From Sphingomonas sp. LT1P40 (GTDB lineage: Bacteria > Pseudomonadota > Alphaproteobacteria > Sphingomonadales > Sphingomonadaceae): a stretch of DNA of 64,000 nt. The position numbers were made by a program, and so were the translations under genes. The stretch lies in NCBI RefSeq assembly GCF_036663835.1, contig NZ_JAXOJT010000002.1, positions 682,001 through 746,000 of the forward strand. The letters run 5' to 3'. Shown one piece after another: positions 29,985 through 33,630 of the stretch. The notes below the pieces were generated by a model that did not search any database, had not been told where the DNA came from, and saw only the letters and a list, made by a program, of their open reading frames with translations. Numbering within the stretch: position 1 is the first letter of the stretch; the number at the start of each line of letters is the position of its first letter.

Positions 29985-31040
29985 TCAGCTTACGCTGAAC
30001 TTCAGCAGCTTGATCGCCTCGCTGTTCGTCACCGCCCCGCCCACGCGCTTGGTTGCGTAAAAGTGGACGAACGGCTTGTTGCTGTACGGATCGCGCAGCA
30101 CCTGCGTCTCGCCGCGCTCGGCGATCAGATACCCCGCCTTGAAATTGCCGAACGCCACCGACAGCGAGTTCGCCGCGATATCCGGCATGTCCTCGGCCTC
30201 GACCACCGGATAGCCCAGCAACGTCGCCGGCTGCCCCGCCGCGATGCCCGGCACCCACAGGAACGCGCCATCGCTCGTCTTGAACTTGCGAATTCGCGCC
30301 AGCGTCGACGAATTCATCACGAACACCGCGCCCTGCCGGTATGGCGGCCGCAATGCCTGAACCAGGTCGATCAGTCTCTCTTCCGGGTTGGCCGAAAACG
30401 CCCCCGAAGTGCCGCTAGCGACATGCTGCAATGTCCCGAACGCGCGGCTCGTGTCCGGCGTCGCGGCGGTGGAATAGGCCAGAAAGCCCTTGGGCTTGTT
30501 GGTCCCGTTGCCGCTCACATAAGCAGCCCCTTCCGCACGGGCGAACTCACGGGCGATCTCGTCGGCCAGCCACGCCTCGACGTCGAATGCCGCATCGTCC
30601 AGCATCGTCTGGCTCGCGGCGGGGTTGGCGAACAGATCGCCCATCGGCGGCGCGATCTCGTTGAACACCGCCGTCGCGGTCTCGGCCCGCGCGCCGGTCT
30701 CCGCCGCCCAACCCGACGGCGTGCCACCCGACGCCACCAGCTTGCGATACCCGGCCGAACCCACCGTCACCACATTGGCGATCGCGCGAATGGGCGAAAT
30801 GCTCGCCAAAGTCGCATCGACCAGCGCATCGATCTCACGCGGGATGGCGTAGCCCCCCGCGCCGTCGGACGCCCCCGACATCGCCTTCATCTCCAGCGAC
30901 CCGGTGCCTGCCCGCAGGAACCCCTCGAACGCCGCACCATTCGGCGCCCGCGCGCCCGCCAGCATCGGTCGCGCCGCCGGCACGCCAGCAGTCTCTAGTC
31001 CCTCGAACGATTGTTCGAGTGCATCCGCCTTGATTTCCAT
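29985..31040 (-). CDS. Major capsid protein, HK97 fold (GTA gp5)
   Basis: 351 residues from the ATG at 31040, with GGAGGA upstream. HK97-family features: an N-terminal delta-like helical segment (1-45), GYAIPREIDALVDATLASIS, FANPAASQTMLDDAAFDVEAWLADEI, YVSGNGTNKPKGFL, then VMNSSTLARIRKFKTSDG, ATLLGYPVVEAEDMPD and GYLIAERGETQVLRDPYS. It is flanked by hairpin-T-run terminators on both sides. Confidence 0.96.
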   Translation of the reverse strand: MEIKADALEQSFEGLETAGVPAARPMLAGARAPNGAAFEGFLRAGTGSLEMKAMSGASDGAGGYAIPREIDALVDATLASISPIRAIANVVTVGSAGYRKLVASGGTPSGWAAETGARAETATAVFNEIAPPMGDLFANPAASQTMLDDAAFDVEAWLADEIAREFARAEGAAYVSGNGTNKPKGFLAYSTAATPDTSRAFGTLQHVASGTSGAFSANPEERLIDLVQALRPPYRQGAVFVMNSSTLARIRKFKTSDGAFLWVPGIAAGQPATLLGYPVVEAEDMPDIAANSLSVAFGNFKAGYLIAERGETQVLRDPYSNKPFVHFYATKRVGGAVTNSEAIKLLKFSVS

Positions 31041-31058
31041 TCCATTTCCTCCGCTTGC

Positions 31059-31091
31059 AAAACAAAAAAAGGCCCCGCCATCGGCGAAGCC
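31059..31091 (-). terminator. Terminator-like hairpin just upstream of the capsid gene
   Basis: Minus strand: GGCTTCGCC / GGCGGGGCC 9-bp stem (two G-U pairs), GAT loop, followed by TTTTTTTGTTTT. It ends only 19 nt before the capsid ATG, so it lies in the capsid leader, downstream of the plus-strand membrane-protein insertion. Confidence 0.78.
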
Positions 31092-31095
31092 ACTG

Positions 31096-31123
31096 TTGCT
31101 CAAACAAAATCCGTCCTTAAGCT
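31096..31123 (+). promoter_or_regulatory. Possible promoter of the three membrane-protein genes
   Basis: TTGCTC at 31096 and TAAGCT at 31118 with a 16-nt AT-rich spacer, about 22 nt before the first gene. Weak match; listed because the cassette is oriented against the GTA operon and needs its own start. Confidence 0.3.
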
Positions 31124-31144
31124 GCGCCCTCAGGGGGAGCGGCC

Positions 31145-31753
31145 ATGAGCCAGTTCGAATTCTTCATGGCCTTTTACGGCCTGTTGCTCGGTCTTGCCGT
31201 GGCTGAACTGCTCGGCGGATTCGCCAATCTGCTGCGTGAACGCGCCCAGCCCAAATGGGGCGTCCTGCTCCCGCTCGTCGCGCTGCTCATCCTGGTCGAG
31301 ATCAGCGCCACCTTTATCGACACCTGGGTCAAGCTCCAGGGCATCAACATCAACCTGGTCGAATTCGGCCTGCCCGCGCTTATCGGCATCTTCTATTTCA
31401 TCGCCGCAGTGATTGCGTTCCCGCGGCATCTTGAGGACTGGCCGTCGCTCACCGACTATTTCCTCGCACGCCGCTACTGGATCGTCGGCCTACTCATCGC
31501 CGCCAATCTCGGCCATTTCATCACCGAAATCCCGTTCGTTCAAAAGGCCGCTGCCGAGGGGAATCCCGGTTTGATCGGCTATATCTTGCGCAACCTGCTG
31601 CTCTTTGCGACCTATATCGTCCTGATGGTCAGCCGCCGCGTCGCGGTCAGTATCGCCGCACTCGCGGTCCTGCTCGGGTTCTTCGCCTATATCTATGGCG
31701 TGCAGGCGATGCTCGCGGGCGGCTGGACCATCGCAGGAAGCCCCGCCGGATGA
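31145..31753 (+). CDS. Six-TM membrane protein, tandem paralogue 1
   Basis: 202 residues with six predicted transmembrane segments at about 10-30, 37-60, 72-94, 108-130, 145-163 and 167-190. N-terminus is MSQFEFFMAFYGLLLGLAVA. A cytosolic or periplasmic loop carries FPRHLEDWPSLTDYFLARR, conserved in the two following genes. GGGGGAG precedes the ATG. It is the first of three paralogues on the strand opposite to GTA genes, between protease and capsid. No known family recognised. Confidence 0.88.
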   Translation: MSQFEFFMAFYGLLLGLAVAELLGGFANLLRERAQPKWGVLLPLVALLILVEISATFIDTWVKLQGININLVEFGLPALIGIFYFIAAVIAFPRHLEDWPSLTDYFLARRYWIVGLLIAANLGHFITEIPFVQKAAAEGNPGLIGYILRNLLLFATYIVLMVSRRVAVSIAALAVLLGFFAYIYGVQAMLAGGWTIAGSPAG

Positions 31754-32355
31754 CCCAGTTCGAATTCTTCATGACCTTTTACGGTCTGCTGCTCGGCCTT
31801 GCCGTGGCGGAACTGCTGCTCGGCTTCGGCAACATCCTGCGCCATCGCGCGCGGCCGAAGCTTGGCCTGCTCACGCCATTGCTTGGCTTGCTCGTCTTCA
31901 TCATGCTGATGTCGACCTTCATGGACGCCTGGGGACGGCTTCAGGACGTCCGCATCACGATGGATTCGCTCGCACTGCCCACTGCGATCGGCGTCCTCAT
32001 GTTCTTCGTTGCGATTATCGTCGTGCCCCGCCAGCCCGACGAATGGACTGACCTTGACGAGTATTTCTTCGCCAACCGGCGCTGGAGCCTTGGACTGATC
32101 CTGGTCGTGGATGTGCTGATCTACATCTACGAAGCGCCTTTCGTCGGCATCCTGATTGAACGACAGCTCTGGGATCGGTTCATTCCCTATCTCGTCGTCA
32201 ACGCCGCGCTCATCGGACTGACGGTTGTAGCGCTGTTCGCCAGACCTCGCCGCATCGTCGCCGCCGCGCTTGCGGCCCTGATGCTGATCCTCGCATGGCT
32301 GTACAGCGATCTCGGCATGCCGATCTTCGCTGGCCTGCCGGAGGTAACGCGATGA
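31750..32355 (+). CDS. Six-TM membrane protein, tandem paralogue 2
   Basis: 201 residues, same six-TM layout. Starts MTQFEFFMTFYGLLLGLAVA and carries the loop VPRQPDEWTDLDEYFFANRR. The start overlaps the stop of paralogue 1 by 4 nt and its stop overlaps paralogue 3 in the same way. The first 90 nt are strongly conserved among all three genes, which points to tandem duplication or tight constraint on the N-terminus. Confidence 0.88.
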   Translation: MTQFEFFMTFYGLLLGLAVAELLLGFGNILRHRARPKLGLLTPLLGLLVFIMLMSTFMDAWGRLQDVRITMDSLALPTAIGVLMFFVAIIVVPRQPDEWTDLDEYFFANRRWSLGLILVVDVLIYIYEAPFVGILIERQLWDRFIPYLVVNAALIGLTVVALFARPRRIVAAALAALMLILAWLYSDLGMPIFAGLPEVTR

Positions 32356-32936
32356 GCCAGTTCGAATTCTTCATGACCTTCTACAGTCTGCTCGTCGGCC
32401 TTGCCGTGGCAGAGCTGCTGCTCGGCTTCATGAACCTGCTGCGCCACCGCCAGCGTCCCCGGCTGGGTCTGCTGACCCCGCTGCTCGGGGCACTCGTGTT
32501 CCTGCAATTGATGGCGTTGTTCATCGACGCGTGGATGAGTCTCAAGTCAGTCGAAATTTCGATGATGGGGCTGGCGGTACCCACGCTGATCGGCGTTGCC
32601 ACCTTCGCCGCCAGCGTGCTGGTCGTGCCACGCGATATCGAGGAATGGCCCGATCTCGACGATTATTTCTATCGCAACCGCCGCATCGTGCTGGGTCTGC
32701 TTTTTGCCGTGAACCTGCTCATCCTCGTCCACGAATCTCCGAAGGTTCCTTCCAACGGGTTGCCCGCCTATCTGCTGGTCAACCTGACCGGGTTCAGCCT
32801 GATGACTGCAGCGATATTCCTGCGTCACCGCATTGCCATCGCTGCCAGCCTCGTCGCGCTCATCTGCCTCTATCTCAGCGTTTACAGTGGCACGCGCTTC
32901 TCGCTGTTTCGCTTCTTTAGCTATATGGTGTCGTGA
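32352..32936 (+). CDS. Six-TM membrane protein, tandem paralogue 3
   Basis: 194 residues from the ATG at 32352. N-terminus MSQFEFFMTFYSLLVGLAVA and loop VPRDIEEWPDLDDYFYRNRR. The C-terminal TM region differs most from its paralogues and ends RFSLFRFFSYMVS. The stop lies inside the 3' end of the convergent prohead protease gene (16-nt overlap). Confidence 0.87.
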   Translation: MSQFEFFMTFYSLLVGLAVAELLLGFMNLLRHRQRPRLGLLTPLLGALVFLQLMALFIDAWMSLKSVEISMMGLAVPTLIGVATFAASVLVVPRDIEEWPDLDDYFYRNRRIVLGLLFAVNLLILVHESPKVPSNGLPAYLLVNLTGFSLMTAAIFLRHRIAIAASLVALICLYLSVYSGTRFSLFRFFSYMVS

Positions 32937-33328
32937 CCCGGCTGCACATCGCCGTTCAAAGCCTCGACCGCATGCACCCGCGCGAGCTTTTGCATCGGTC
33001 GCGCCACCAGACTGACTTCGCACAGCTCCACCCGCCGCAACTCGCGCCACCGCCCATGCCGCGCCGTCACCGTGCGATATCCGAAACTCAGCCCCGCAAC
33101 CGCCCCTTTCGCCACCAGCGCCGCCAGTTCCGGCGCATCGACCCGCCCGGTCACCCGCAGTCCCCGCGCATCCTCGCCAATCGCCTCGATGACCCCGACC
33201 GGTAGCCCACGATGCTGCCACAGCAACGGCACCCGCCGCACCCGCGCCCCGAACGCCCCCGCTCGAATGACATCGCCCCCGCGATCCGGCGCATCGAACA
33301 CGGCGGCATAGCCAGCGAACCGGATCAT
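32921..33328 (-). CDS. HK97-family prohead protease (GTA gp4)
   Basis: 135 residues from the ATG at 33328. FAGYAAVFDAPDRGGDVIRAGAF, PLLWQHRGLPVGVIEAI, the catalytic histidine in LLWQH, and VAGLSFGYRTVTARH, then RRVELCEVSLVARPMQ with the serine, match the prohead protease family. The protein is short, and its last residues overlap the inserted membrane-protein gene; the C-terminus may have been trimmed by that insertion. Starts with an ATGA overlap. Confidence 0.92.
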   Translation of the reverse strand: MIRFAGYAAVFDAPDRGGDVIRAGAFGARVRRVPLLWQHRGLPVGVIEAIGEDARGLRVTGRVDAPELAALVAKGAVAGLSFGYRTVTARHGRWRELRRVELCEVSLVARPMQKLARVHAVEALNGDVQPGHDTI

Positions 33329-33630
33329 CGACCCAGCCCCCAGAACCCCAATTTCACCGCCACCCCGATCATCACCAGCGCAAGGCCCATCCGCACGATC
33401 CACCCGATTGCCGCCTTCACCGCAGACCGCTTCGCATCACGCCACGCCCCCAGCAGTTCGCGCAACTCCGCCATGTCCTTCGCAGCGCGCGGATCATCCA
33501 GCCCCAGCCGCACCAGCGCCCGGCTCGCCGCCAATTCCCCTGCCTCCTCGGCCACCGCGCGCAGCGTCGCCACATCCGCACCCTCGGCGGCTCCCTGCGC
33601 CATCAACTGCGCGAGCAAACCGCCGTTCAC
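33325..33630 (-). CDS. Small GTA-cluster protein (gp3.5 position, DUF6127-like)
   Basis: 101 residues from a GTG overlapping the portal stop. Helical N-terminus (LAQLMAQGAAEGADVATLRAV, VRLGLDDPRAAKDMAELREL) and one C-terminal transmembrane helix (IVRMGLALVMIGVAVKLGFW). I recall this layout as DUF6127, a sphingomonad family between portal and protease. Function unknown; it may anchor assembly at the membrane. Confidence 0.8.
   Translation of the reverse strand: MNGGLLAQLMAQGAAEGADVATLRAVAEEAGELAASRALVRLGLDDPRAAKDMAELRELLGAWRDAKRSAVKAAIGWIVRMGLALVMIGVAVKLGFWGLGR

Follow-up and report, generated by a model that had tools for sequence, protein, structure and literature searches.

Our study concerns a window of 64,000 nucleotides from Sphingomonas sp. 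LT1P40 (contig NZ_JAXOJT010000002.1, positions 682,001 to 746,000), in which the prohead protease and major capsid genes of a gene transfer agent (GTA) cluster of the RcGTA type are separated by a cassette of three tandem genes, each encoding a predicted six-transmembrane (six-TM) protein. We interpret the cassette as a tandem array of a host-derived six-TM family lodged in an accessory slot of the GTA, whose products likely form a channel-like oligomer and serve a cell function expressed separately from the particle genes; taken as a whole, this explanation is tentative, with a probability approaching an even chance. That the cassette is real and not a chance arrangement is confirmed by orthologs at the same junction in other genomes and by ratios of nonsynonymous to synonymous substitution (dN/dS) of 0.13-0.37 in ten ortholog pairs, drawn from lineages 3 and 4 and from the pair L018/L126a.

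The initial annotation of this DNA, made from the sequence alone, described three coupled genes between protease and capsid on the strand opposite to both, and the open reading frames (ORFs), two 4-nt ATGA overlaps and the Pfam matches of the flanks are all present (Table 1), with the cassette on the + strand and the flanking GTA genes on the - strand. The three proteins are 41-42%, 41% and 52% identical in pairs, and all of them begin, as had been described, with M-(S/T)-QFEFFM. The loop reported as shared is found in the three proteins as PR..(E/D)(E/D)W..L..YF; the RR ending ascribed to it is looser in gene 1 (ARRY).

Selection was estimated by the NG86 method. The dN/dS values were 0.13-0.27 among four orthologs of the lineage of gene 3 (lineage 3) and 0.21-0.37 in four further pairs (w3/L127a, w3/L199b, L018/L126a and L020/L199c), and gene 1 gave a weaker purifying signal against its own lineage (0.47 and 0.70, at dS values of 0.64-1.23, which are near saturation). 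The first helix (TM1) is the most conserved segment of the family proteins and, in addition, the first 30 codons of all three genes are conserved beyond the protein sequence, in agreement with the strong constraint on this region that had been suspected at the outset. In the window copies, 53 of the 72 codon pairs that encode the same residue at codons 2-30 are identical, against 36.2 expected (z 4.2), compared with 45 of 87 against 42.7 expected in the downstream codons (z 0.5). The corresponding z values for the first 30 codons and the downstream part are 7.7 and 3.5 in the lineage-3 orthologs and 5.8 and 2.3 in tandem paralogs of Caulobacterales, all of these being inflated because the pairs are not independent.

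The junction clade and its insertion-tolerant slot

The question of whether the cassette occurs at the same junction in relatives, raised by the initial annotation, is answered by nine distinct loci that carry copies between protease and capsid, opposite to the GTA genes. In the genus, the carriers (copies in parentheses) are the window (3), L018/G096 (1), L019/G316 of S. turrisvirgatae (1), L020/G015 (1), G205 (1) and G099 (3), and those from IMG/VR are L126 (2), L127 (2) and L128 (1); the pairing of L018, L019 and L020 with G096, G316 and G015 is probable. In L018, just part of the protease is matched, some 1.5 kb past the cassette. At positions 4200-6000 of L020 (Sphingomonas sp. 32-66-10), 26 residues of capsid match stand beside the cassette and are followed by other sequence, so that this capsid gene seems to be truncated or rearranged, unless the assembly is at fault.

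In a tree of 70 family proteins (all 15 from GTA junctions and 55 from 35 chosen loci), the 15 junction proteins form one clade (supports 94/92 and 92/97), which stays intact when a high-scoring non-GTA copy of G096 is added (SH-aLRT 97 in a quick tree). Distinct lineages within the clade reappear across genomes; copy 3 of the window groups with the S. turrisvirgatae protein, L126b, L128, L127a and L199b. Since copy 3 is closer to its S. turrisvirgatae ortholog (79% identity) than to its neighbours (at most 52%) and the lineages recur, the array should be older than the split of these species, unless whole lineages moved between them. The recent expansion proposed initially is thus not supported.

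The clade is rare and faithful to its site. At a cut-off of E<=1e-40, a profile built from 14 of the 15 junction proteins picked out 10 genes among 295 genus genomes; they belong to 6 genomes, and all 10 lie at the junction. Among 397 genomes drawn from the family, the profile matched the window's own genome alone. In a set of 201 genus genomes, the cassette was found at the junction in 5 and a capsid match in 161. The capsid tree comprised 8 carriers and 27 non-carriers, 35 rows in all, with L020 left out because of its 26-residue match. The carriers are scattered on it: the best tree requires at least 6 changes, and its well-supported branches force 2. Shuffled arrangements were as low in changes as the observed one in 58 of 500 cases. 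This scatter probably reflects one founding event followed by losses, exchanges, or both.

We also conducted a census of the junction in 90 loci, comprising the 30 best capsid matches and 60 picked further down the list; the protease was out of range in three of them, all carriers. The 87 non-carrier junctions measured at most 200 bp in 52 cases and were longer in 35, these lengths being approximate since they were taken between the ends of tblastn matches. Inserts in non-carriers include genes for a HEAT-like protein (HEAT_2 at 22.1 bits, below the 27.7 cut-off) and lgt-like, csp-like and transposase-like genes, the latter three names coming from a reading of the sequence. These results show that sphingomonad GTAs have an insertion-tolerant accessory slot between protease and capsid. 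Recurrent inserts at the junctions of L132-L135 and of L147 and L151-L153 consist of a protein of about 95 residues on the opposite strand, which had no Pfam match, and a HEAT-like protein on the GTA strand.

A custom-written scan for terminator-like signals placed one within 150 bp of the capsid in 49 of the 87 non-carrier loci, where mononucleotide shuffles gave 1.2 per set; among carriers, 4 of 8 had one within 220 bp. In Caulobacter, GafZ enables RNA polymerase to pass a terminator that lies within the GTA cluster, in that case behind its first gene (PMC11150451), and similar control is possible at the window junction; by this analogy, the hairpin next to the capsid gene (Table 1) may be an internal terminator bypassed by anti-termination. 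A consensus scan of the 104-bp divergent region gave no sigma-70-like site.

Predicted fold and the family beyond the GTA

The AlphaFold model of protein 2 contains six long helices, in line with the six-TM architecture first deduced from the sequence. The predicted fold superposes on bacterial single-repeat TMEM175 (e.g. 5vre_A) over 170-172 residues, with weak Foldseek E-values; support for a six-helix TMEM175-like shape comes from prediction. There are further likenesses: both have subunits of about 200 residues with six TM helices (predicted ones in our family), a most conserved helix 1 followed by poorly conserved later helices, and a conserved Trp in helix 2. The differences are nevertheless considerable. 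PF06736 (TMEM175, formerly DUF1211) matched none of the three proteins (E<=10) and none of 31 family members (E<=1), and hhalign of the family profile against 18 TMEM175 proteins of related genomes gave no signal (0.9% and 0.6%). The family often occurs in tandem paralog arrays, and its TM1, whose conserved residues are F4 E5 F6 F7 F10 Y11 L13 L14 L15 G16 L17 V19 A20 E21 G25, lacks both the conserved threonine of helix 1 and the FSD motif, which is described at the start of helix 1 of TMEM175 (PMC7176437). All of our 18 TMEM175 rows have the D and the T, and F-S/T-D is present in most but not in every one.

The N- and C-termini of TMEM175 are cytosolic. Positive charge in the family falls on loops 1-2, 3-4 and 5-6 (mean K+R of 3.68, 3.78 and 2.45, loop 3-4 also having 4.54 D+E), and the positive segments of the TMEM175 rows are the N-terminus, loops 2-3 and 4-5, and the C-terminus. 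By the loop-charge rule, the family is predicted to be oriented N-out/C-out, opposite to the N-in/C-in of TMEM175. Because of the missing profile signal, the missing motif and the reversed loop charges, we did not file the family under TMEM175; its proteins may work like TMEM175. The window genome holds one ordinary PF06736 match elsewhere.

Models from Pfam, NCBIfam, PHROGs and PADLOC (0 families for all three proteins in the last) gave no credible match to the cassette proteins, as expected from the initial remark that no family was recognised. A profile search in which 7,996 candidates were scored yielded 1,191 relatives at E<=1e-3; among the matches listed, none of 120 relatives carried a Pfam domain and no relative had a named function. 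The initial annotation had envisaged, as a counter-case, a housekeeping family living away from GTAs: members are indeed found at loci away from GTAs in many genomes, and a function was named for none of the relatives listed. By title and abstract, no paper on the cassette or its family appeared among the best-ranked matches in the open-licence literature, which does not prove that none exists.

The window genome contains nine family matches, three in the cassette and six elsewhere, one of these six being doubtful and the five clear paralogs occupying assorted places. Of 201 genus genomes, 65 have a member at E<=1e-5. A relative is encoded in 108 loci of genome_contigs, mostly from Brevundimonas, Caulobacter and other Caulobacterales, of which 80 were kept. 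An M14 carboxypeptidase gene lies directly downstream of the family gene in 60 of the 80, and 18, including GTA and Blastomonas loci, some of them short contigs, gave no M14 match. In L040, which was read in detail, the family gene stands between UbiD and M14, and MAPEG, PmbA/TldD, inositol phosphatase and DUF4170 follow in this order; some of the Pfam scans were made on the corresponding genes from other loci. Family genes form tandem runs of 2 to 7 in 18 of the 80 loci, as counted by a simple gene caller that undercounts. One Brevundimonas metagenome-assembled genome (L077, 3661-7309) has seven called family ORFs in a row, the last of just 65 aa, between a long ORF and an M14 carboxypeptidase gene, with an eighth copy on the other strand. 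Contig 7 of G096 (L304, 714-9704), from a genus genome with 6% stated contamination, carries a Caulobacterales-type locus with, by eye, UbiD-like, family, M14-like, PmbA-like, inositol-phosphatase-like and DUF4170-like genes, and may be a contaminant.

Candidate functions

In the explanation that we favour, a single founder from an unnamed, host-derived alphaproteobacterial six-TM family would have entered the insertion-tolerant slot of a sphingomonad GTA. One clade and synteny are observed; the founder would have duplicated and diverged at the junction, and the cassette would later have been lost or exchanged in many genomes. The fold, the conservation profile and the overlapping genes suggest that the proteins most likely oligomerise in the inner membrane around the conserved first helix, like TMEM175 subunits, into a complex resembling a channel or pore, in which different subunits may be mixed; the membrane complex of three homologous subunits first suggested from the sequence is likewise possible. 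Its orientation against the GTA operon and the divergent region upstream of it make it probable that the cassette is expressed independently and serves the cell, not the particle.

Compatible with a channel function, and a substantial possibility in itself, is that the array is a passive passenger, a functional host family doing work unrelated to GTAs. The unrelated inserts that fill the slot in other genomes, the five paralogs elsewhere in the window genome and the patchy carriers of the capsid tree all favour it, against which stands the fidelity of the GTA copies, one clade whose profile matches were all at the junction. We consider a passenger at least as likely as any GTA-linked function.

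It is unlikely that the proteins are enzymes or transporters whose resemblance to TMEM175 reflects a common helical arrangement. The weak Foldseek E-values and the lack of a profile match fit this idea, as do the M14 gene adjoining Caulobacterales members and the MAPEG, PmbA/TldD and inositol phosphatase genes nearby, where read; however, the 80 loci come mostly from one bacterial group, so that synteny may be descent, and the 18 without an M14 match include GTA and Blastomonas loci. Defence or exclusion, also proposed initially, is not demonstrated. A membrane complex that stops DNA from GTAs or phages at the inner membrane of carrier cells, or protects siblings, would suit a predicted membrane protein kept under purifying selection on the opposite strand at nine junctions, but most of the family loci found lie away from GTAs, the junction clade is confined to 6 of 295 genus genomes, PADLOC gave no match and the phage collection no tblastn match to the query P0002, which makes this reading improbable. 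There is a slim prospect that the family comprises upside-down TMEM175-like oligomeric channels of tandem paralogs, one clade of which became a resident GTA accessory tuning the membrane state during GTA release or DNA uptake. A holin-like pore that depolarises the membrane for GTA lysis or release would account for small multi-TM proteins with a channel-like fold match inside the cluster, yet the opposite strand precludes co-transcription with the structural operon and junction copies are far rarer than capsid matches, so that its chance is very small indeed.

Phage morons, accessory genes inserted between structural genes, offer a close comparison: the cassette also lies between head genes, opposite to the late operon, and is patchily distributed. 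It differs in sitting in a GTA and belonging to a bacterial chromosomal family, with no phage relative found with P0002. The host cluster itself has terminase, portal, protease, capsid and tail genes in the RcGTA order; the cassette differs from its genes in not being a known GTA gene and in being absent from the clusters of most relatives examined.

These results delimit an unnamed membrane-protein family, of which a 90%-clustered database contains more than 1,000 members, offer a structural hypothesis that can be tested, and reveal the junction as an accessory slot. If the resident clade affects release or uptake, it would represent a membrane function linked to the GTA but separate from the structural genes; if it has no such effect, it would exemplify how domesticated phage clusters collect host genes.

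Coordinates and neighbouring genes

We take position 32352 (ATG) as the start of gene 3; the ORF that begins at 32295 is longer but a mechanical call. The tail of gene 3 overlaps that of the protease gene convergently by 16 nt.

Table 1. Features of the cassette and its flanks in the window.
Feature	Position	Strand	Remarks
Gene 1, six-TM family protein, 202 aa	31145-31753	+	Lineage 1 (with L127 copy b and L199 copy a)
Gene 2, six-TM family protein, 201 aa	31750-32355	+	AlphaFold model pLDDT 94.3
Gene 3, six-TM family protein, 194 aa	32352-32936	+	Lineage 3; S. turrisvirgatae ortholog 79% identical
Conserved 5' DNA of gene 1 (30 codons, TM1)	31145-31234	+	Same stretch opens genes 2 and 3
Divergent intergenic region between capsid gene and gene 1, 104 bp	31041-31144		Presumed location of cassette promoter
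Intrinsic-terminator-like hairpin, 9-bp stem and T-run	31071-31091	-	Directly 5' of capsid; faces GTA direction
GTA major capsid gene (flank), Phage_capsid	29985-31040	-	PF05065
GTA prohead protease gene (flank), Peptidase_S78	32921-33331	-	PF04586

The Pfam matches of the host cluster follow the RcGTA-like order of terminase, portal, protease, HK97-type capsid, tail tube and NCTSP/DUF2460. A spermidine-synthase-like gene (PF01564; 34829-35500, - strand) lies between terminase and portal, and it was matched also in L019 and L020.
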